DNA of 59,986 bases from a virus: IMG/VR virus record IMGVR_UViG_3300022746_000173, positions 1 through 59,986 of that record, one strand, 5' to 3'. The notes beneath the pieces were generated by a model. It was given only the letters and a program-made list of their open reading frames with translations. It had not been told where the DNA came from and ran no database searches. Of this stretch, positions 47,065-59,986 are shown in pieces (position 1 is the first letter of the stretch; every line of letters starts with the position of its first letter). A program made the position numbers and the translations under genes.

Positions 47065-49728
47065 TTATTCCCAACTAAACAGGCTATCAAATGTTGTCTT
47101 AATGTCAGTGCTTTCTGCAATCTTCCATTCTAGAACGCCCAGTAAGTTTTCTACTTTCTGATCTACAATAGTTGTTTCCATTAAGTCTTGGTCAAATGGC
47201 AAGTCCTTAAACCATTGTGGAATTTGACTGGCGTCTGTTGGATAACCGACACTGGTATAGCCCAATGGATTGTCTTTTAACTTACACACAATGGTCTTCA
47301 TACCATCGACAATTTGCATACTGTAGTTGTCACTGTGCATTCTGCGTAGATTGTTCCAGTTCATGGCAGCACGAACGTGTCCTGGCATGTTGGCGCGACC
47401 CATTCGCTTTTCGTCTGCTGTGTACTTGGTCAAGTTGTTTACACGCTTAGGTGTACCCTTTTCCCACGCCGGCAACTCTTTAAATGACAGTTTAAACTCA
47501 CGTACTTTGTCAATGATCGATTCTTTAGTCTTACCAGTAAGTGTGTCTAATAGAATTTCACTTAGAAAGTCTTGAACAATCTTTGGAGTATCACTACGCT
47601 TCAAGTCCAGCCCCATGGCTTTGACTTTGCCTGGCTTACCATCAACGTCGAGTCGTTTGCCTTCGAGATCGTAGATAAGAACAGCATAACGCTTCTTCTT
47701 GATAAACAAGCCCTTCTCTGCAACTAGCTCACGACCTGCTTTGATAATGCTACCCATTTCTCTTGGACAGTGACATGCACGTTCCATGAATGCGGGAAAG
47801 CTATTGTTAACGCTGTCGGCAATGGTGTCATAGAGTTGAACGCAGATATCTTTGCTCCACTCCATTGTACCTGCTTCTACTTCTTCTTTGATGGCCGGCC
47901 ACGCACTAAAGTATACGGAGTCCGTGTCCCCGTAGATAATGCTTTTGCCAGTGTAATCGTAGTTGCCCGTAATTGCCTCATTAACGTGGGAGTCCATGTG
48001 CTTGGCGATGATACGCCCAGTAAGCGTTGTACTTTGGCCAATTCTCTGGTCAAAGAACCTACACCCGGCATTAAGGATGGCGCCGTATAAGCTGTTGAGG
48101 TTAATCTTTTTAACGAGCTGACGCTTGTCCCAGAAAGCGGTTTCTTCCGGCGTTTCTGCGGTCTTCTTTTTAGCTTGGAGATCTTTTCTTTCTGCATACC
48201 ATCTTTCTAATAAGCCGGGAATAACACCCTTCATGTCGTACTTGAACAAAGTACCATTGGCACTCAAAGTCCATGGCTGATTACTGTCAAAGATCATGCG
48301 CCATACTTGCTCTGCACTGTGAGTTGTACTGCTATTGCCACCTTCCCAGTCGATTGTTATCTCAGTCCCCGGTTCCATGTTCATAACAGCGTTGTACTCT
48401 AGTGTACCAAACATACCTTCCCAAGCATCTGCAAAACTAGACCCTGCGGCTATTTTGTCTGCAATATACTTGTCGGTCATTACTGTTCGGATTTGTCCAA
48501 CGATTGTTTCTGGACCCATGTTAAGGGCACGAATAGCCGAGGGGTAGAGCGAGTTAAGGTCAATGGCTCCGATGTAGTCGTGCATGCCTTTTTTCGGGAA
48601 AGCAACATAGGCACCTGCTGCTTGCGTTTCTCCTTGATCATCTCTTCCCTTTCTATTTGGAACAATCATACCTCTTGCGTGAGCTTCGTTAATAATCGCC
48701 TGCTCCGTTACAGCTACCGCACCCATTGTGGTCTGTAACAACACAGTGTTGTCGTGTGCAAGTTCGTTAGCAAGGTCTAAGAAACGTAATTTCTTATCTA
48801 ACTTTGCCAACAGCATGGTATCTTGTCTGTTATAGTCAATGAACTTGGGAAAGTCCTTGTTATATAGCGCATCAAGTGTGCCTTCGTAGGCCACTTTACG
48901 CTCATCAAGTTCGTATTCGCCAATGGCGTCCAAACTATAACTATGTCGTTCTTCGTATGTATACTTGCGGTACAGTTGCATATAGTCCAAATGCACACGA
49001 CCCAACAAGTCAAAGGTAAGTTGCTTTGCACCAAAGCGTTCAAACTCTCGCTGCTTTGGTAATTGATTCCACAAGCATAGTCTACGTGTGTCGTCTTTGC
49101 TCAACACCTTGGTAATACGCATTGTGGTATAAGGAATATCGAAACCCTCTGAGTTCCATCCACTTAAAATGTCTGCATCCTCGATCAAGTCAAGGAATGT
49201 GTTTAACATATCCTCTTCACGTTCGAATAAGAAACAATTTTCAAACTTGTTGCAAATTTCCTGTGCACTTTCCCAACTATAACTCTTTGGTGGCACAACC
49301 AACGTGATTAATTTGTCCATCCAGTCTAGATAAACAGAGAAAGCAGTAATTGGGTTAAAAGGATCTTCAGGTCGACTGTAACCACGCTCTGGATCAAAGT
49401 CGACCTCAATGTCGAAAAATGCTGTTTGAAGTTTAGGAGAAGTTGCACCCAAGTAATTGGCTTCTAGACAACGGAAGATGGGATTGATATCACTTTCCCA
49501 TAAGCGTTTGTCTGAATTAATTCTTAGTTCTTTTTGGTATTCTTTATTATTACGTGTACTGAATCTGCTAACTGGTGTGTCATAGATAGTACGGAACTTA
49601 CCGCGGGGGTCGTCGTAATAAAAAATGTAATCTGCTGGATATTCTTTGTATACCCTTTGACCATTTACACGTTCAACAACGTGAATACGATCTTTTGCTC
49701 TGTCAAAAATTCCATCAACATAACTCAT
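47065..49728 (-). CDS. DNA polymerase, family B (T4 gp43-like)
   Basis: 887 residues (T4 gp43 is 898). Exonuclease motifs: F-F-D-I-E (Asp106/Glu108), G-W-N-S-E-G-F-D-I-P-Y and Y-N-R-Q-D-T. Polymerase motifs: A, I-D-L-N-S-L-Y-P-S; B, K-K-I-N-L-N-S-L-Y-G; C, Y-G-D-T-D-S. It is the phage replicase, acting with the clamp and RNase H in this window. The ATG overlaps the TGA of the Cys-rich small gene. Confidence 0.97.
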   Translation of the reverse strand: MSYVDGIFDRAKDRIHVVERVNGQRVYKEYPADYIFYYDDPRGKFRTIYDTPVSRFSTRNNKEYQKELRINSDKRLWESDINPIFRCLEANYLGATSPKLQTAFFDIEVDFDPERGYSRPEDPFNPITAFSVYLDWMDKLITLVVPPKSYSWESAQEICNKFENCFLFEREEDMLNTFLDLIEDADILSGWNSEGFDIPYTTMRITKVLSKDDTRRLCLWNQLPKQREFERFGAKQLTFDLLGRVHLDYMQLYRKYTYEERHSYSLDAIGEYELDERKVAYEGTLDALYNKDFPKFIDYNRQDTMLLAKLDKKLRFLDLANELAHDNTVLLQTTMGAVAVTEQAIINEAHARGMIVPNRKGRDDQGETQAAGAYVAFPKKGMHDYIGAIDLNSLYPSAIRALNMGPETIVGQIRTVMTDKYIADKIAAGSSFADAWEGMFGTLEYNAVMNMEPGTEITIDWEGGNSSTTHSAEQVWRMIFDSNQPWTLSANGTLFKYDMKGVIPGLLERWYAERKDLQAKKKTAETPEETAFWDKRQLVKKINLNSLYGAILNAGCRFFDQRIGQSTTLTGRIIAKHMDSHVNEAITGNYDYTGKSIIYGDTDSVYFSAWPAIKEEVEAGTMEWSKDICVQLYDTIADSVNNSFPAFMERACHCPREMGSIIKAGRELVAEKGLFIKKKRYAVLIYDLEGKRLDVDGKPGKVKAMGLDLKRSDTPKIVQDFLSEILLDTLTGKTKESIIDKVREFKLSFKELPAWEKGTPKRVNNLTKYTADEKRMGRANMPGHVRAAMNWNNLRRMHSDNYSMQIVDGMKTIVCKLKDNPLGYTSVGYPTDASQIPQWFKDLPFDQDLMETTIVDQKVENLLGVLEWKIAESTDIKTTFDSLFSWE

Positions 49729-51127: not shown

Positions 51128-51502
51128 TTACTGTTTTAATTGTTCTGGATTGTTCTGGTTAAAGTTACGCATAACTACACCGGCTTCGCTGTTGGCTTCG
51201 TTTTCTTGGGGAGTACCAGTTTCTCCTGCACCGTCTGTAAGGTCGCCGTTTAAGTCTTGACGATAGTGAACTAGTTCATGTGCAAGTGTACGCATAACAT
51301 CAACTGGATGTCTATTACCAACAACTAGATATAGTTTCTTTTCGCTTGGGCTGTATGTACCAAAGCTAGTTGTGACAGGTTGGTTTAAGTATTCTATCTC
51401 GCAAGGTTTTTCTAATCCCAGTTCTTTGCAGATCCAAGGAAGATGAGTTTTTATTAGTTCTACTGTGGAACTACTTTCTCTTAAGAAATCTTTTGCTCTC
51501 AT
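51128..51502 (-). CDS. Zinc metallopeptidase-like protein with capsid-targeting-like N-terminus
   Basis: 124 residues starting M-R-A-K-D-F-L-R-E, like the T4 capsid-targeting peptide. The core has H-E-L-V-H-Y-R-Q (HExxH) near 87 and a later E-N-E-A-N as a possible third ligand, the SprT/gluzincin type. If packaged in the head it would be cut after Glu9 by the prohead protease and delivered to the host. ATGA junction with the Dps-like gene. Confidence 0.72.
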   Translation of the reverse strand: MRAKDFLRESSSTVELIKTHLPWICKELGLEKPCEIEYLNQPVTTSFGTYSPSEKKLYLVVGNRHPVDVMRTLAHELVHYRQDLNGDLTDGAGETGTPQENEANSEAGVVMRNFNQNNPEQLKQ

Positions 51503-51936
51503 TTTGAACTTGCACGTAGCATCCAGCTGTGCTTACGATGTGCATCCATGCGCTCTGCTAGAAAGTTACTGAATCCATGTTCGCCATGTTTCTCAGCAAT
51601 ATCGTAAGTCATCTTTAATATAGTTACCATCTTGTTGCTGTCATCAAGTAATTCTAGAATCATTTGCTCATATGGTAATACTTGAGTTTCGTCTTCGATC
51701 TGACTTAACATACTAAAGCGACTGTTACTACCCGGGGCATATGCGCCCAATGAACGGATCTTTTCCGCAAAATCGTCGATGCTGCTGTAAGTTTCTTCGT
51801 AGATCTTACCAAACAATTCATGCAACTGCGAAAAGTTAATGCATTCAACGTTCCAATGAAAGAATTGTGCTTTTAGATAAAATGTAAATTCGCTAGCAAA
51901 GGCTACCTTTGCTGCGTTGTGTAATTCTTCATTCAT
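51499..51936 (-). CDS. Dps/ferritin-like protein
   Basis: 145 residues: K-A-Q-F-F-H-W-N-V-E ... F-S-Q-L-H-E-L-F-G-K-I-Y-E ... I-D-D-F-A-E-K-I-R-S-L-G match the ferroxidase helices of Dps (H-W-N-V, H-x-x-F, D-x-x-A-E). A late D-A-H-R-K-H-S-W-M-L follows. It lacks the long basic DNA-binding tail. It could detoxify iron/peroxide or compact DNA; whether it is packaged is unknown. Confidence 0.88.
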   Translation of the reverse strand: MNEELHNAAKVAFASEFTFYLKAQFFHWNVECINFSQLHELFGKIYEETYSSIDDFAEKIRSLGAYAPGSNSRFSMLSQIEDETQVLPYEQMILELLDDSNKMVTILKMTYDIAEKHGEHGFSNFLAERMDAHRKHSWMLRASSK

Positions 51937-54658
51937 TGCCGTGCTTCTCTAAGTATGCTTTTAACAAGCTTCTTGCAGTATCTCTGCTCATATTGGCTTT
52001 AATGGTTGCACCGTTTGGAGCAATCAATTCCCATTCAGTGACAGAATTGCCATCTGCCAATTGACGTTTAACTGGTCTAATAAATGCTTTGCGTGGCTTG
52101 GTTTCGCCAATCATCATGTCGCCTACTGCTGCACCACCATCTGCACCGTGCCATGCATCTTTTGGTTCATTGCCGCCACCGTGCCAGCTATCACCGACTT
52201 CGTCGCTATGCCAATCATCTTCGCAAATACAGCGATTGTCTTCACGGTTACATGTTGGGCAGTAGTCTAATGCTCTTGCCGTTTTTTTAGGGGCAGCAGA
52301 TTTTTTAGCTGCTGGTTTAATTTTGCTAGTAAACATTCCCTTATTTTCGGCATCCCAATCGCCTTTAGTTTTACCATATTGACCTCGGAATTGTTGCGGA
52401 GTCATGTCATCACGTTCGCCCTTTTGGATAGCAAAGTCTTTAACACGGCCTTCTTCTAAGTCGTCTTCGTCATCAAAATAATCTGAGTCATCGCCTAGAT
52501 CGAAATGACGTTGTGCATATTCCATTGCTTGGTCTTCTGCGTAGAAAGGACCTTTAACTTGGCTGCGACGATAGTCATTGCGAATATGCTGCATGACATC
52601 ATCTGGGGTCAAGTAGCTCATATAGTTGCCACCCCAATTACCAGGAGCATCGCCAGCAACAGCACTTTCTCTCCAACGTCCGCCATCCTTAGTAACCATG
52701 CCCACAAATGCGCCATCATGTTCGCTTGCAATGACTACAAAGAAGCCGCCTTCGGCTACGCCATCATCGTCACCTAGGTCGCCGTATTCGTTCTCTTCCG
52801 CCACACCTTGTTGTTTTGATGTATCTGTATATCCATCGTTATATCCTTGATGTGATGCTTTGTACGATGGACTATCGCCCCACGGAGCTTGTTTTGGCTT
52901 ACCTTGTTTAGCATCGTTCTTACCAAGTCTGAATGCCTTTTGATATTGGCCATTTTGTCCCATGTTTTCTGCCACACCTTGAGTGGAACTGTCAACCCAG
53001 CCATCATTTCCGCGCCAATGAGCTATTAGTTTACCGCATAGCTTTACATAGTTTTGACCATCATCGTCTGTTTCTAACTGACTTGCGGCTCTTTTCCATT
53101 CTTGATAATCGTTGAACTGTTGACGGTCAGTCATACCTTCCGCCACAACTTCTTCGCCCACGTGCTTGAAGTACTGGACTTGACGCTCACGCTTTTCGGC
53201 GCCAGCCTTTGTAGGATACTTACCTAAGTTCTTGTTACCATGCTTGCTTTTAAGCTCGTAACCGCCCGACACTTTAACAATGTGTTCTCTAAGGTGTTTT
53301 GCATCTAGTTCATCTAAGAATTCTTTATACAACTCAGGAATTTGACGCATACTAAATCTAAAAAATGGATCACGTAATAACAAGTCTTGTAAATGACTAG
53401 CATCAATGATTCGAGAAATAGCAGGATCAGCAGCAACTTCTTTAATTGCTTTTCCTGCTTCACTTTCTTCAGACAACTTCTTTAATGTAGCGTCAGTATT
53501 AAAATATACTTCTAGTTTACTTTCATTACGCTCACTGCCGAGATTCTGAACTATTTTGCTCCATACCCCGTCCTTAACTGACAATGCTTGGACGGCCAAG
53601 TCAATATAGCTTTCTATTAGAGGCATGAGTTTGGCTTGTGTATTTTCATCAATGGTAATACCATATTCGCTTAGGTTATATTTAAATCCAAATACAGCAA
53701 TGCGATTCTTGTATTCACCGATTAAATTTGCCAATTGCGTTGAAGCTTCACGACTGTAACCGCGTACTGCTGCTTTGTATTCGTCGGTCATTAGTCCCAA
53801 TAGGTTATACTTGATTGCTTGCGACTTAAACACTGTTTGCAATGCAGGGAAACGTTTGGCCAATTGGTCCATGCCCTCGTCACCAATTTGGTGATCTTGG
53901 TAATCCATAAACTGTTTGGTTTCAAAGTGGAATTGATACTTTTCGTTATCGTCTGTGCGTTGTGCAGGAATAATAATGAATAGTGGGCCTTGTTTGGCAT
54001 AGTAATCAAAGCGACTGTTATCGCCTTCCCACGCAGTACACCAACGGTTAGTAACACCCTTCTTTGGGTATTCTTTTGCCCACCAGTAACCACCAAATTT
54101 AGTCAATGGTTGAATGATCAAGCAGTCAGTTGTAATACGACCTTGCTCATCCATTCTTCCGTAAACGTAACGCCAGTCGCGGTCGGGTGGTAATTGCACA
54201 GCACCGATTTTTTGTTGCTCAATTTCGCTGTCTGGATCGGGTAGTTGCTCGACTACGCTCATGAACTCATCCAAGCTCTTGTAACGCATAAAGTCGTTTT
54301 GCGGAGCAGGAATCTTCTTTTTGTTTTTTAGCTTGTCAAATTTGATTAGATACTGACTTAGTGTAGACTCAATATCTTCTAGCATTGTGCCACCCAAGGT
54401 GTACATTCTAGTGATAGCTTGTGCGTAGTTTTTGTTCTTTGTTGGGTCTGATTGCTCAATAACACCCATAACGTAGTCTAGAATTAACTGTTGCCCTTCT
54501 GGGGTATCTGCACCAGCTTTAATTGCACCATTTGGGAATCGCCCAATAAGTGCGTGTATAACTGAACGATCTTTTAAAGCTACAGCTAAAATCTTTTCAG
54601 CGTAGTTCTTAAGTGTTTGTCCACGGTCGTATTCTAATAAAATGTCGTTAAATCTCAT
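51929..54658 (-). CDS. Large modular virion-type protein 1 (909 aa) with VAE sites
   Basis: Starts M-R-F-N-D-I-L-L-E-Y, a capsid-targeting-like peptide, right behind a perfect late promoter. Residues ~10-300 are shared with the 463-residue protein upstream (R-W-C-T-A, Q-G-P-L-F-I-I-I-P, E-K-Y-Q-F-H-F, Q-F-M-D-Y-Q-D). The C-terminal half is a chain of short modules separated by V-V-A-E-G, G-V-A-E-N, G-V-A-E-E, G-V-A-E-G and D-L-E-E-G. It includes L-K-S-K-H-G-N-K-N-L-G-K-Y and a zinc-ribbon-like C-P-T-C-N-R-E-D-N-R-C-I-C. Probably a processed internal virion protein. Confidence 0.75.
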   Translation of the reverse strand: MRFNDILLEYDRGQTLKNYAEKILAVALKDRSVIHALIGRFPNGAIKAGADTPEGQQLILDYVMGVIEQSDPTKNKNYAQAITRMYTLGGTMLEDIESTLSQYLIKFDKLKNKKKIPAPQNDFMRYKSLDEFMSVVEQLPDPDSEIEQQKIGAVQLPPDRDWRYVYGRMDEQGRITTDCLIIQPLTKFGGYWWAKEYPKKGVTNRWCTAWEGDNSRFDYYAKQGPLFIIIPAQRTDDNEKYQFHFETKQFMDYQDHQIGDEGMDQLAKRFPALQTVFKSQAIKYNLLGLMTDEYKAAVRGYSREASTQLANLIGEYKNRIAVFGFKYNLSEYGITIDENTQAKLMPLIESYIDLAVQALSVKDGVWSKIVQNLGSERNESKLEVYFNTDATLKKLSEESEAGKAIKEVAADPAISRIIDASHLQDLLLRDPFFRFSMRQIPELYKEFLDELDAKHLREHIVKVSGGYELKSKHGNKNLGKYPTKAGAEKRERQVQYFKHVGEEVVAEGMTDRQQFNDYQEWKRAASQLETDDDGQNYVKLCGKLIAHWRGNDGWVDSSTQGVAENMGQNGQYQKAFRLGKNDAKQGKPKQAPWGDSPSYKASHQGYNDGYTDTSKQQGVAEENEYGDLGDDDGVAEGGFFVVIASEHDGAFVGMVTKDGGRWRESAVAGDAPGNWGGNYMSYLTPDDVMQHIRNDYRRSQVKGPFYAEDQAMEYAQRHFDLGDDSDYFDDEDDLEEGRVKDFAIQKGERDDMTPQQFRGQYGKTKGDWDAENKGMFTSKIKPAAKKSAAPKKTARALDYCPTCNREDNRCICEDDWHSDEVGDSWHGGGNEPKDAWHGADGGAAVGDMMIGETKPRKAFIRPVKRQLADGNSVTEWELIAPNGATIKANMSRDTARSLLKAYLEKHGNE

Positions 54659-54688: not shown

Positions 54689-56080
54689 TTAATGTCTAGG
54701 CCATCCAGATACAAAAACAGTCCAGACTGGGTCATTATTGCCGATTCGGTTGTTATCTCTGCGTACACCAATACGTTGTTTAATGGCACTGGCAATGTGA
54801 TCACCGTCTCGGCTACCAGCTTTGCCAGTTTCATAGTTTACTATTCGTGCAATTAAAGCGTCAAGCTGTTCCATTTTATACAGTTCGACGTCTAACCCGT
54901 CTCTGGGGCTGACTGCAAAGTCTTTGACCATTTTGGGACTGTAATCTAGTGCAGTTTCTACTTCTTTAACCCAAGTTCTAACTTCGTCGTTCCACTCTAG
55001 GTAGTTGTTTAGATGATCGTCTTCGCGCACACGGTCCCAATCAACATCACCATTTTCGTCTTCCCAGCCACGCTCACGTGCCTGCTCTGCTTGCCATTCA
55101 GTAAAGTAATCGTCTTGGTGTTCCCAATTCATTACTTCGTCCCATAGCCAGTCTCGGGCAATTTCTTTAATCTTTTCTAGTAACGGTGCCAATGTTTCAT
55201 CATCAGTGTAGGCAACATACTCTTTGATTTCTGGTTCTTGCTGCTTGAAGAAATCTATCAGATGAAAGCGATCATCAATGAGGTCAAGTAGTGAGACTTG
55301 TTCGTCTTGCTCGTCCATGAACTGTTCGCTAGGGAAATGTAACTGGTACTTTTCACCTTCATACCTAGCATGTGTTGGGATTAGGATATACAACGGACCT
55401 TGACGGCTGTAGTGGTTAAAGTAGTTGGTACCCTGTGTTGCGGCTGTACACCAACGTGTGCCACGTCCATAGTAGCAAGCTGCTGACTCATCTTCTGGTA
55501 CAACAATGCGAACTTCCGCATCCTTGTACATTTCAGTAACTTTGCCCTTATCAGCAACTTCATCTTCGGGCAATGCATACTCGTCCATGTTGTCCATGAA
55601 GTTACCAAAGCTGTTGTACCGGTTGATATCGTTTGCTGGAGGCTTTAGAATCTTTTTACGCTTTAGAATAACAAACTTATGTAGGTATTCCCTTATGGTA
55701 CTGGTAACATCTTCTAGCTTTGTATCGCCGGTAATGTAACGGGCAGCAATCCATTGTACATATTCTTTGTGTGCTGTTGGGTCGCCTTGTTCTAATGTTG
55801 CTAGAATAGCATCAATTAGTGCTGGTTTTATTTTTTGTAGTATTTCCGGAGCGTTTGCTTTATTGATAGTGGTCTTCTGCCCTAGTACATTCATAATGAT
55901 TGTATCTTCAAAGTGAAACTTTGGGCGAACGACCATATCTACTATAGTCCATGCGCCATACAAAATGTCAGGCAGGGAATGGCCGTTTTCCTTGGCATGG
56001 AACGATGTAATAAGACGGTCGCCCATCTTTTGGGCAGTTACATCTCTGCGGTATTCTAGTAAAAATTCTTTTGCTCGCAT
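54689..56080 (-). CDS. Large virion-type protein 2 (463 aa), paralogue of protein 1
   Basis: Starts M-R-A-K-E-F-L-L-E-Y, the clearest capsid-targeting-like peptide. The middle has G-R-G-T-R-W-C-T-A, then H-Y-S-R-Q-G-P-L-Y-I-L-I-P, E-K-Y-Q-L-H-F and Q-F-M-D-E-Q-D, all shared in order with the 909-residue protein. Long acidic/Trp-rich tail without obvious modules. Function unknown; the W-C-T-A block with a following GPL strand could be an enzyme core. Confidence 0.72.
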   Translation of the reverse strand: MRAKEFLLEYRRDVTAQKMGDRLITSFHAKENGHSLPDILYGAWTIVDMVVRPKFHFEDTIIMNVLGQKTTINKANAPEILQKIKPALIDAILATLEQGDPTAHKEYVQWIAARYITGDTKLEDVTSTIREYLHKFVILKRKKILKPPANDINRYNSFGNFMDNMDEYALPEDEVADKGKVTEMYKDAEVRIVVPEDESAACYYGRGTRWCTAATQGTNYFNHYSRQGPLYILIPTHARYEGEKYQLHFPSEQFMDEQDEQVSLLDLIDDRFHLIDFFKQQEPEIKEYVAYTDDETLAPLLEKIKEIARDWLWDEVMNWEHQDDYFTEWQAEQARERGWEDENGDVDWDRVREDDHLNNYLEWNDEVRTWVKEVETALDYSPKMVKDFAVSPRDGLDVELYKMEQLDALIARIVNYETGKAGSRDGDHIASAIKQRIGVRRDNNRIGNNDPVWTVFVSGWPRH

Positions 56081-56087
56081 GATCTAT

Positions 56088-56798
56088 TTAGTTGTCTTCC
56101 GGTTCCCACCCGGTGAATAGCTCACGCAGGTCAATGTTATCGTGGTGTATTAACAAGTCAATAAAATCAATAGACAATACAAATGACAATGATTCTGCGG
56201 CATCGAGTGCTGCTGGTAATGGTTGTCTTCTGAAGGTGTTGGCTAGCTCAATTAACTGTGGAATGTCTGCAATTTGATCACGAGTCCATTCTTTTTCCAC
56301 AGGATCTGTGGCTATTTCTAAGTTGTGTCTTAGTTCTCTAAGTTCGCTGGTTGCAATGCGTATTAGTGCATCACCAATTCGCATGCCTTTAGTTGGGGCA
56401 AACATGTCGTCATCCGTCTCACTTAGATGTTTAGCATCGCCCTTCTCTTGCCACTTGTCCCACATACGTCTGCCTGCATCAAGTTGATAACTAGATGGAT
56501 TAATAGTATTACCTAGCATACGTGCATACGCATACATGTTAGATGCAATGCCTTTGTTTCTATATGACTTTGCAACTTTGGTCCAGTCACTGGACAATGA
56601 TAGCCCTTCATGTCGTGGAAGGCGAAACTTTGCAAATCCGATGCATTGTCCGCCAGCATATGCCCTAACAACAAACTGTTGGTCGTTCTTTAGTGTTTTA
56701 GCTCTGTATACAATACCGTCTATCTCAAGTTCATGAGAAAAATCCTGGTGGTAAACGTCAGGATTTATGTCTTCGACTACGAACTCACTAGCTCTCAT
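56088..56798 (-). CDS. GNAT-like acetyltransferase with targeting N-terminus and DDMFA tag
   Basis: 236 residues starting M-R-A-S-E-F-V-V-E. Residues ~55-115 read F-V-V-R-A-Y-A-G-G-Q-C-I-G-F-A-K-F then V-A-K-S-Y-R-N-K-G-I-A-S-N-M-Y-A-Y-A-R, the acetyl-CoA-binding motif A of GNAT enzymes, so an N-acetyltransferase is likely. A tag L-S-E-T-D-D-D-M-F-A-P separates it from a helical C-terminal part. Comparable in idea to the T4 Alt enzyme injected with DNA. Confidence 0.72.
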   Translation of the reverse strand: MRASEFVVEDINPDVYHQDFSHELEIDGIVYRAKTLKNDQQFVVRAYAGGQCIGFAKFRLPRHEGLSLSSDWTKVAKSYRNKGIASNMYAYARMLGNTINPSSYQLDAGRRMWDKWQEKGDAKHLSETDDDMFAPTKGMRIGDALIRIATSELRELRHNLEIATDPVEKEWTRDQIADIPQLIELANTFRRQPLPAALDAAESLSFVLSIDFIDLLIHHDNIDLRELFTGWEPEDN

Positions 56799-58822
56799 CT
56801 GATTCTCTTTGGCTCGTTGCCTAGTTGTGCAGCATTACTGATATTCTTGCTATCTGCCTCTGGCCATGCATAAATGTATTCACCTGCAAAGTCTTTGACC
56901 AACAACCAACGAATGCCTGCTGCACTGTACTGATGTGTCTGTGCAGAGTAACCTGGCATAACTTGTGCAAAGTCGATATCGCCCGGACCCATGTCGTTGC
57001 CGTTCTCACGTACAAAGTTAGCAACTGCATTTACTTCCATACGTGTATTGGGACCTTGACCACCCAAGTTACCGATCATGTAGATCTCTTCTGTCGGGGT
57101 GTTGGTCATGCTGCCAAACAACACTTTACCTAATTGACGAATCATGCGACTCATGTTGCCTGGTAAACGTGCTACCTGGTGGAATGCTGGGCTAGTTTCG
57201 CCTGCTGCTGCAAGTGCTTGTCCTGCCACTGATGGCAAGTTTTCGGTGTTAACTTCTGTACTAATGTCTAAAGTGGGCTCTTCATCTGGATAATCGGCCA
57301 AGTCTGGATCAATATCAATGTTACCTAAATTGTTCAAATGACGCATTGCTTCGGGAGGCAACTGTACACCTGCTGTGGCACGGCGTGTATCGCCTGCACT
57401 TGCTTGGCGCATCTTAGGAGACGCTGTGCCCGCAGACTTGTGTTGCTGTGGATCTGGGCGACTTGCTAGTGGCTGATCCTTTTGTTGTTGGAATGGATCG
57501 TAATCAAACTTTGGTTTAGTTTTTGTTTGCTGCTTACGCTCTGGTGCAGGCGGCTCATCTAATTCAACCTCAGCTTCACGAATGTTTCTAACCTGCTGAA
57601 CCATTTGTCTTGTAATTGGTAAACGTTTTGTTTCAAATCCTGGAGTGTCATCGTAAAATAACTCACCTAGTTCTTCTTGTGTCGGGTCTTCATCGAAATA
57701 TGTAAAGTCCGGAATAAAAGCAATTTGCTTGTTTTCGCGGTCAACAATGGTTAATCCGTCTGTGTAGCCACCAAAGCTATCATCAAACCCACCACCGCCG
57801 ACCATAAAACCCAATGGACCATCTTCGGGAAAGTTGAATTTACTTAGAATACGATCTAAATGAGATGCAAACATATTGTCATCGTCATTGTTTTCGTTTA
57901 CAGCATCGTTCTTAAAGAATTTACGTGCCGACTGTTTAAAGTCAGCATCGGTTCTCAAGGATTGATCTTTACTAAATGAATCCCAAGCCTGGTACAAATC
58001 GTTGTAATGACCTTCTTCAATCATCCAGCCAAAGTCAATTAAGCCTTCGTAGCCGGCTTCCCTAACTAATTCGTCAACGACATACGCTTTGTCAAATGGG
58101 GCGCCAGTGAGATCCAGCACCAAATTGAATAACATATCTACGCCGCCACCGGCCATGTCATCGTGGGCATCTGAGTAGTATTTTTGGATTCTAGGATTTT
58201 TCATAGCACGGGTTCCCTCTTCTTCAAGGGTGCGTAACAGTCCTAAACCGTACTCGTATATTTGACGTTGAGCATCTGGTGGAACACGAGTTGATGCAAA
58301 CATTTCGTCGTTTTCGTAGACGTCATCCTCGTAATCGTCTTCATCTTCGTCGTCACTCCACTGAGTTGGACTAGACATGTCATACATATCTGCTTGATTA
58401 GGATGATAGTTGCCATTACTATTTCGTATTGCAGCCATAACACCGTCTGTGATTTGGTCAAGTGCCAGGCCAATCTTGTTTTCTATTTTTTGGTTATCGG
58501 GATGTGTTTTTCCTGTGGCATACGGACTAATAGTGTTCCATAAGGTATGAGGAATATTAACACCAAATGATGGCAAATATTGCTGTAGGTAAGCAAGTGC
58601 TCCGCTCCAGTTGTTACCAAATCCGTTGTTATAAAAGTCGTGTTGTATTTTAGAAACTGCACGTAGCATTTCACCTTCAACGGTTTCTGCTTTGCCCGAT
58701 GCAGGAATTAGCTGATCCCAGAAGACACGGTATTCATGTGGTTGACGGTCTGAGTCGTAGTATTTTCCAGGACGCTTGGCAGCGAACATGTCGTCATTTT
58801 CAAATAATTCATTAATAAACAT
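56795..58822 (-). CDS. Modular virion-type polyprotein with DDMFA tags (675 aa)
   Basis: Starts M-F-I-N-E-L-F-E-N-D-D-M-F-A. Two further tags, V-Y-E-N-D-E-M-F-A and V-N-E-N-N-D-D-D-N-M-F-A, divide it into modules. Between them are acidic stretches, a Gly-rich segment (G-F-M-V-G-G-G-G-F-D-D-S-F-G-G-Y), a Pro/Lys/Gln linker and a final compact domain. Each tag has [LIV]-x-E just before it, like prohead-protease sites. Overlaps the GNAT gene by four bases. Confidence 0.7.
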   Translation of the reverse strand: MFINELFENDDMFAAKRPGKYYDSDRQPHEYRVFWDQLIPASGKAETVEGEMLRAVSKIQHDFYNNGFGNNWSGALAYLQQYLPSFGVNIPHTLWNTISPYATGKTHPDNQKIENKIGLALDQITDGVMAAIRNSNGNYHPNQADMYDMSSPTQWSDDEDEDDYEDDVYENDEMFASTRVPPDAQRQIYEYGLGLLRTLEEEGTRAMKNPRIQKYYSDAHDDMAGGGVDMLFNLVLDLTGAPFDKAYVVDELVREAGYEGLIDFGWMIEEGHYNDLYQAWDSFSKDQSLRTDADFKQSARKFFKNDAVNENNDDDNMFASHLDRILSKFNFPEDGPLGFMVGGGGFDDSFGGYTDGLTIVDRENKQIAFIPDFTYFDEDPTQEELGELFYDDTPGFETKRLPITRQMVQQVRNIREAEVELDEPPAPERKQQTKTKPKFDYDPFQQQKDQPLASRPDPQQHKSAGTASPKMRQASAGDTRRATAGVQLPPEAMRHLNNLGNIDIDPDLADYPDEEPTLDISTEVNTENLPSVAGQALAAAGETSPAFHQVARLPGNMSRMIRQLGKVLFGSMTNTPTEEIYMIGNLGGQGPNTRMEVNAVANFVRENGNDMGPGDIDFAQVMPGYSAQTHQYSAAGIRWLLVKDFAGEYIYAWPEADSKNISNAAQLGNEPKRIR

Positions 58823-58825
58823 ATA

Positions 58826-59986
58826 TTACTTATCTTCTGTGTAAATTGAACTGTTGCTGGATTCATTTTCATCAATGACAGGCGGGCCGTTCATTGGGTA
58901 CGACACATAAATGCCGCGCCCCGCCAATGCTAATCCTAGTTTTACTTTTTGTCGACGGTGCGCTTCTGCATATTCTGGACGGTTATCATCTTTGATGGCA
59001 TTCCATAACATTATCAGCGTATCCGTTGGCATCTTCTTGAGTTTGTCTAGCCTGGTAGTAGACTTTGAAAACATTTCATCATCGTCTTCAGATTCATTCA
59101 ATTCGCCTGTATCGTATTTGTCCATTAGTGCAGATAAGTCGATGCTAAAGTCAGCAGCAAGTTCACCTAGGTCTTCCCATGAGCTTGTATCTTCTAAGCC
59201 CGTAAGCTCGCTAATACCGGCACGTAGTCCATTTAGAAATGCATTTGATGCACGTTCTAGCACATATGCCTCTGAATGATATAGCTCGGCAGCGTCTGGT
59301 TCAACACTAGTTCTGGCATATTTGTGATATCTACGAGATAATTGATGAGTAATATTAGATAAAGTGCGTGGGTTAACCACTACACGGTTATTAGAAAACA
59401 TATCATCGCCATCTTCTTCGTCTATCGGTAAGTATTGATCGTCAAGTTGATTTAAGTAGACTTTGTGCTTGATTGCTAATTCAGAATCTATAGTCTCAAG
59501 TACACTTATGGCAACCATATCTAATCCATTAAGAAAAGCCTTGATGCCACCGCGTGCCAATTCGCCACGTAGATAATCGTAATCACTTAGATATTCGCCA
59601 AGTTTAATGTACCACTCTTCGCTATTGCTTGGGTCTGATTCGTCATATAACGCTTGATAGTGATCGTAGAATCCATCTAACACAGATTTAATTGCCTGTT
59701 CAGTTTTAGTTCGGGCGCTTGGCGCAAACATGTCATCTTCTTCAGTTAGTCCCAAATGTCCTGTGATTAGTTCTTCAGGATCCCAGTCCTCAACTTCTCT
59801 ACAATAGTTATAATAGTCTTCTCGGACGTCACGATCAACTAGTACCCATTGTACTAATCCGGCTTGCATGCCCTTTTTAAACGCTGCACCAGCAGCCAAC
59901 ATGGCTTTACCGTTACGGATCAAATCTCCTGCATATTCATGTACCGCTTCATCCTGTGAATACTGTACGTCACGGCCCATCTCTAA
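58826..59986 (-). CDS. Tandem-module virion-type polyprotein with DDMFA tags (5' end outside window)
   Basis: The frame stays open to the window edge, and the ATG at 59980 lies inside a module, so the gene starts beyond 59986. At least three helical modules of about 100 residues, each with an A-F-x-x-G-[LM]-type helix (A-F-K-K-G-M-Q-A-G, A-F-L-N-G-L-D, A-F-L-N-G-L-R-A-G), are separated by L-T-E-E-D-D-M-F-A, I-D-E-E-D-G-D-D-M-F-S and L-N-E-S-E-D-D-D-E-M-F-S. Unknown fold; looks like beads on a string. Confidence 0.7.
   Translation of the reverse strand, partial: LEMGRDVQYSQDEAVHEYAGDLIRNGKAMLAAGAAFKKGMQAGLVQWVLVDRDVREDYYNYCREVEDWDPEELITGHLGLTEEDDMFAPSARTKTEQAIKSVLDGFYDHYQALYDESDPSNSEEWYIKLGEYLSDYDYLRGELARGGIKAFLNGLDMVAISVLETIDSELAIKHKVYLNQLDDQYLPIDEEDGDDMFSNNRVVVNPRTLSNITHQLSRRYHKYARTSVEPDAAELYHSEAYVLERASNAFLNGLRAGISELTGLEDTSSWEDLGELAADFSIDLSALMDKYDTGELNESEDDDEMFSKSTTRLDKLKKMPTDTLIMLWNAIKDDNRPEYAEAHRRQKVKLGLALAGRGIYVSYPMNGPPVIDENESSNSSIYTEDK

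Follow-up and report, generated by a model that had tools for sequence, protein, structure and literature searches.

The window analyzed here is the whole stretch of 59,986 bases held in IMG/VR virus record IMGVR_UViG_3300022746_000173, which is probably a fragment. At its right end lie three adjacent open reading frames (ORFs), ORF A to ORF C, in which a short tag recurs, consisting of [LIV]-x-E followed by an acidic run and MFA or MFS (the acidic-MFA/S tag). An initial annotation of this DNA had described seven copies; all seven are present on the minus strand, its coordinates were right to within ~5 bases, and [LIV]-x-E precedes each copy as it had stated. The three ORFs and their features are listed below, with an arrow after the Glu of each joint; CTS stands for capsid-targeting sequence.

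58826..59980, minus strand: ORF A, 384 amino acids, divided by three tags into four segments, the frame open to the window end
59723..59749, minus strand: tag LTE↓EDDMFA, ORF A
59393..59425, minus strand: tag IDE↓EDGDDMFS, ORF A
59066..59101, minus strand: tag LNE↓SEDDDEMFS, ORF A
56795..58822, minus strand: ORF B, 675 amino acids, starting MFINELFE↓NDDMFA and continuing with modules 1, 2 and 3, then a Pro/Gln-rich linker and a C-terminal region
58799..58822, minus strand: N-terminus MFINELFE of ORF B, shorter than the CTS pattern
58781..58807, minus strand: tag LFE↓NDDMFA, N-terminus of ORF B
58373..58738, minus strand: module 1 of ORF B, amino acids ~29-150, encoded as a separate protein in most of 30 relatives read
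58295..58321, minus strand: tag VYE↓NDEMFA, ORF B
57866..57901, minus strand: tag VNE↓NNDDDNMFA, ORF B
56088..56798, minus strand: ORF C, 236 amino acids, with MRASEFVVE, a GNAT module, a tag and a second module in that order
56772..56798, minus strand: CTS-like start of ORF C, MRASEFVVE; the Glu is aligned with the GVAE Glu of two module copies in another locus (L118)
56523..56747, minus strand: GNAT acetyltransferase domain of ORF C, amino acids 18-92 (Pfam PF00583, E 6e-5)
56397..56426, minus strand: tag LSE↓TDDDMFA of ORF C, immediately after the GNAT module

The pattern [LIVMF]xE[DENGST]{2,8}MF[AS] occurs seven times in the 1,295 amino acids of ORFs A to C, a count reached in 0 of 2,000 shuffles, and is absent from the other ORFs of the window (18,148 amino acids). 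Leu, Ile or Val occupies P3 in 7/7 tags, compared with 29/100 of all Glu residues in ORFs A to C. The tag copies use different codons, and no recognizable paralogy was found among the modules between them; a DNA repeat or recent duplication is thereby ruled out, and it is the protein sequence of the tag that has been kept. A widespread motif was also considered and rejected, as the exact form E[DNHY]DDMFA was found in viral contigs at 19 loci whose contexts are mostly unrelated.

In phage T4, internal proteins are directed into the head by a CTS; that of IPIII is 10 residues long, and its processing is directed by residues 8 and 10 (PMC9026906). ORF C and three ORFs further along the same strand (ORFs D, E and G, listed below) fit a strict CTS pattern, starting MRASEFVVE, MRAKEFLLE, MRFNDILLE and MRAKDFLRE, respectively. 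This pattern was found at 4 of the 90 ORF starts in the window versus 0 of 421 internal Met residues, and at 6/222 ORF starts versus 0/927 internal Met residues in G001, a 180-kb relative whose DNA polymerase is 71% identical to that of the window. The shorter start of ORF B, MFINELFE, may be compared with MFVNDLFEKK, with which an ORF carrying four GVAE motifs begins in locus L185.

The evidence that connects these N-termini to the internal joints comes from a register test, in which the mature N-terminus predicted downstream of each strict CTS served as a query against every other ORF in the fetched loci, and a target was taken as strictly internal if no Met lay in the 20 residues upstream. 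The test describes the phage group, with the window contributing the ORF C module as one aligned case. Among 40 strictly internal targets, [LIVM]xE fell exactly at the joint in 22 (0.88 expected) and within 3 residues of it in 32 (5.7 expected); with one match per query, exact register was found in 13/22 (0.47 expected). Where P1 was Glu, P3 was Leu, Val or Ile in 22/25 targets. N-termini without a CTS, put through the same procedure as a control, gave 2/121 against 2.2 expected. A looser earlier version showed the same trend (58/86 within 3 amino acids, 12.5 expected); because it included self-hits and possible N-termini, the strict version and the control were run. The exact register and its absence in the control argue that modules follow the same short site whether they stand first or later in a chain, and the protease-site motif at the module joints is in register with the predicted CTS cut.

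The ORF C module illustrates this at the level of single residues. Its GNAT module also occurs in loci L159 and L148, and twice in L118, within a 1,482-amino-acid frame containing seven GVAE motifs. In the alignment, Glu9, which ends the CTS of ORF C, matches the GVAE Glu in both L118 copies, the joints reading EFVVE↓DINPD in the window and EGVAE↓AINPD and QGVAE↓AVHPD in L118. The L159 ORF with this module starts with a CTS of its own, MRAQEFLHE, and downstream of the module GDAKHL-SE↓TDDDMFA in the window contrasts with GDAKHL...TVAE↓G in L159. The exchange is also seen in ORF E, which is ~82% identical across its first 458 amino acids to its counterpart in L029: in L029, LEE↓NDNEMFSDE stands before the module FFVVIA..DGAFVGMVTKDGG, and in the window GVAE↓G does. 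Among relatives, the common boundary form is Q-G-V-A-E↓G. At least 80 QQGVAEG loci exist; among the matches listed, the motif lies in an open frame at 80/80 loci, with 1-7 GVAE per ORF, and P1' is Gly at 126 of 152 GVAE sites. G001 contains no MFA/S tag, and its long ORFs carry GVAEG joints. The acidic-MFA/S tag is thus a lineage-restricted form at putative joints that other phages build as GVAE or TVAE. ORFs with GVAE motifs (L109-L228) are also enriched in [LIVM]xE-FA(P), for example, LNEFAPPGG (13 versus 2.4 in shuffles); LxE-FA(P) may be another joint form, with no firm link to MFA.

The initial annotation had placed the tags at module boundaries. This was supported for module 1 of ORF B, as judged by its fold, and for the GNAT module of ORF C; as a general boundary mark the tag fails, given the widespread QGVAE↓G and the tagless G001. 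The structure prediction that the annotation had called for succeeded for module 1, modeled from a 15-row alignment from which L003 and L004 were excluded as aligned to the wrong module: the fold is confident at about residues 29-150, and both flanking tags lie in low-confidence stretches outside it. For ORF A, a single-sequence model reached a predicted local distance difference test score of only 39. The module 1 family has 51 further viral loci. Nearly all of the 30 relatives read are short stand-alone ORFs, and in L106 the module lies inside a 903-amino-acid frame. Most of these relatives (L058-L108) carry a tag-like ENTEDMFDYED near the C-terminus, a resemblance that is maybe coincidence. 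Searching for folds similar to the ORF B model gave no match at E <= 0.001, and a search of bacterial and archaeal genomes for module 1 returned pattern matches, none of them confirmed. ORF C joins a GNAT domain to an unrelated module and ORF B a conserved domain family to unrelated segments, and modules are shuffled between ORFs across loci. In L004 (5075-7009), one ORF contains three tandem copies of a segment related to module 3 of ORF B.

The ORF C start and the ORF B stop overlap by 4 bases. ORF A may have its true N-terminus beyond the window end. The sole contig found that might lengthen it, IMGVR_UViG_3300022748_000062, has its first base at the right end of the window (59980-59986) and is identical to it over the 13,189 bases compared; since both records share the same end base, the start of ORF A is open in both. 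Beyond ORF C, the minus strand continues with the following features.

54689..56080, minus strand: ORF D, 463 amino acids, CTS-like MRAKEFLLE, related to PA5oct EST35_0205, with a homologue in G001
51929..54658, minus strand: ORF E, 909 amino acids, CTS-like MRFNDILLE, three GVAE joints
52748..52759, minus strand: GVAE↓G joint in ORF E (codons for VAEG), where the relative L029 has LEE↓NDNEMFS
51499-51936, minus strand: ORF F, ferritin/Dps-like, within the putative cargo gene block
51128..51502, minus strand: ORF G, 124 amino acids, CTS-like MRAKDFLRE, with HELVH, metallopeptidase-like
47065-49728, minus strand: family B DNA polymerase, further along from ORF G

ORF G may be either cargo or a rival processing enzyme; ORFs A to C have no Pfam metallopeptidase match. 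A metallopeptidase-like segment was also observed in L049 (3123-4235), where a single ORF combines it with a nucleotidyltransferase domain, with LDE↓G in between. G001 encodes a T4-type portal, a gp21-type head maturation protease (phrog_207, E 1e-62) and a capsid protein, and its homologue of ORF D lies near the portal, protease and capsid genes. That ORFs A to C are virion-type proteins was an assumption of the initial annotation; the only indication of this kind is indirect, from PA5oct EST35_0205, a relative of ORFs D and E, whose GenBank record notes a structural protein seen in virions by electrospray ionization tandem mass spectrometry (ESI-MS/MS).

Based on these patterns, we consider it rather probable that a single CTS brings about the packaging of several linked cargo modules and that a gp21-type protease cuts the chain at each [LIV]-x-E. 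ORFs A, B and C (and E) would then encode cargo of a T4-like phage head, each protein made up of multiple modules. A T4-type CTS at the N-terminus would carry the entire chain into the core of the prohead. During maturation, each [LIV]-x-E joint would be cut on the C-terminal side of its Glu by the gp21-type prohead protease; the CTS would be lost, and the separated modules would enter the next host along with the DNA, in the manner of the T4 internal proteins and Alt. Each cut would leave the acidic-MFA/S stretch at the start of the following module, where it might act as a spacer or docking stretch specific to the lineage. With modules chained in this way, one targeting signal would suffice for several cargos, and a module could gain or lose the N-terminal place and keep its release residue. 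The initial annotation had proposed prohead-protease sites between the modules; the CTS-like N-termini, the exact register, the exchange of tag, GVAE and TVAE, and the head genes of G001 support this, and we infer the cleavage and the virion location from them. Its further suggestion that the varied P1' residues imply a protease with its own specificity needs correction: no special protease is required, since an equally wide range (S, Y, D, K, T, A and N) follows the CTS Glu in this group of phages.

Several points weigh against this interpretation. Packaging, cleavage, release and injection, as well as the role of MFA/S, are deduced from sequence. A gp21-like protease, which the annotation had proposed to locate, was found in the relative; within the 60-kb window no head gene was recognized, and its own protease was not seen. 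LxE is short and common, and 29% of the Glu residues in ORFs A to C have Leu, Ile or Val at P3. Of the modules in ORFs A to C, domain-boundary support covers module 1 of ORF B and the GNAT module of ORF C. Some module families supply several targets to the register test, so that the independent cases number fewer than 40. Further, in SPN3US the identified prohead-protease cuts, except the protease's own, all yield N-terminal propeptides (PMC10052503), so the release of internal modules is without precedent there.

The alternative that we take most seriously, and still regard as unlikely, is that these multidomain (polyvalent) proteins remain uncut and use the joints as flexible linkers, where recombination occurs at the linkers, the Glu is kept by descent and one polypeptide persists after injection. 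Polyvalent proteins with 2-15 domains that are injected with the DNA have been described (PMC5512222), and the modules here are indeed shuffled between ORFs. However, a mere linker need not match a protease site, and these joints keep Leu, Val or Ile at P3 (22/25 with P1 Glu) and hold the Glu in CTS register although the upstream residues differ; the control N-termini show no register. An encoded zincin-type metallopeptidase, such as ORF G with its HELVH, might instead process the joints, before packaging or in the host, in place of a prohead protease. Such processing has been proposed for polyvalent proteins (PMC5512222), and this gene block does include one metallopeptidase-like ORF that starts with a CTS-like sequence. 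Yet ORF G itself begins like cargo, and the joint motif shares its terminal Glu with the motifs recognized by T4-type prohead proteases (PMC9026906, PMC10052503) and matches the CTS cut position; we consider this explanation highly improbable.

It is also conceivable, if very unlikely, that acidic-MFA/S is mainly a short motif that binds a core or scaffold protein and retains cargo in the prohead, with [LIV]xE secondary. The conserved ENTEDMFDYED near the C-terminus of module 1 relatives would fit this, as would DDMFA in acidic, core-protein-like ORFs of L013 and L019. However, [LIV]xE stands directly before all seven tags, the same joints occur without the tag in GVAE phages and in G001, and the likeness of ENTEDMFD may be coincidence. 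Chance or acidic composition could be invoked because ORFs A to C are acidic and the motif is short, but with no shuffle reaching the observed count we give this next to no credence.

Parts of this arrangement have counterparts in known systems. Like T4 IPI-III and Alt, the proteins here have a short N-terminus ending in hydrophobic-x-Glu and Glu-P1 joints; the likeness lies in the layout of N-terminus and joints, and here the proteins are candidate head cargo. T4 IPI-III and Alt have one CTS and one N-terminal cut, whereas here modules are chained with internal joints. The polyvalent proteins of Iyer et al. 2017 (PMC5512222) are likewise multidomain and partly enzymatic (GNAT), and their entry into the host together with the DNA has been proposed; ORFs B and C, too, combine several disparate domains in one polypeptide. 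They differ in that processing by a zincin-like metallopeptidase was proposed for them, and the portion of that report consulted describes no T4-type CTS followed by repeated Glu-P1 joints. SPN3US gp245 and phiKZ gp175 are cut C-terminal to a short Glu-ended motif (AXE in SPN3US) at several sites per protein, as envisaged here, but those cuts remove N-terminal propeptides and not several folded modules (PMC10052503). T4 core proteins gp22, gp67 and gp68 have many gp21 sites and are cut inside the prohead (PMC5694885); their fragments are short, whereas the pieces between joints here are domain-sized. Thus, T4 CTS cargo, the multi-cut Glu-P1 prohead proteases of giant phages and injected multidomain proteins are each known separately. 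A limited search of an incomplete literature turned up no account of CTS cargo arranged in chains with recurring protease joints. QGVAEG likewise gave no match in the literature, which is weak evidence of novelty because most subscription journals lay outside the search.

Similar linkers are present in many other uncultured viruses. We see an even chance that many uncultured T4-like phages chain interchangeable modules behind one CTS, split by QGVAE↓G, LxE↓ or LxE↓acidic-MFA/S, such that a module moves between N-terminal and internal places and is freed at the same residue. If this is true, the CTS start and the [LIV]xE joints would reveal from sequence alone which uncharacterized phage proteins are both packaged and injected and where each module begins and ends, many unannotated phage ORFs would become candidate injected effectors, and these phages would offer a natural design for packing several proteins with one signal.

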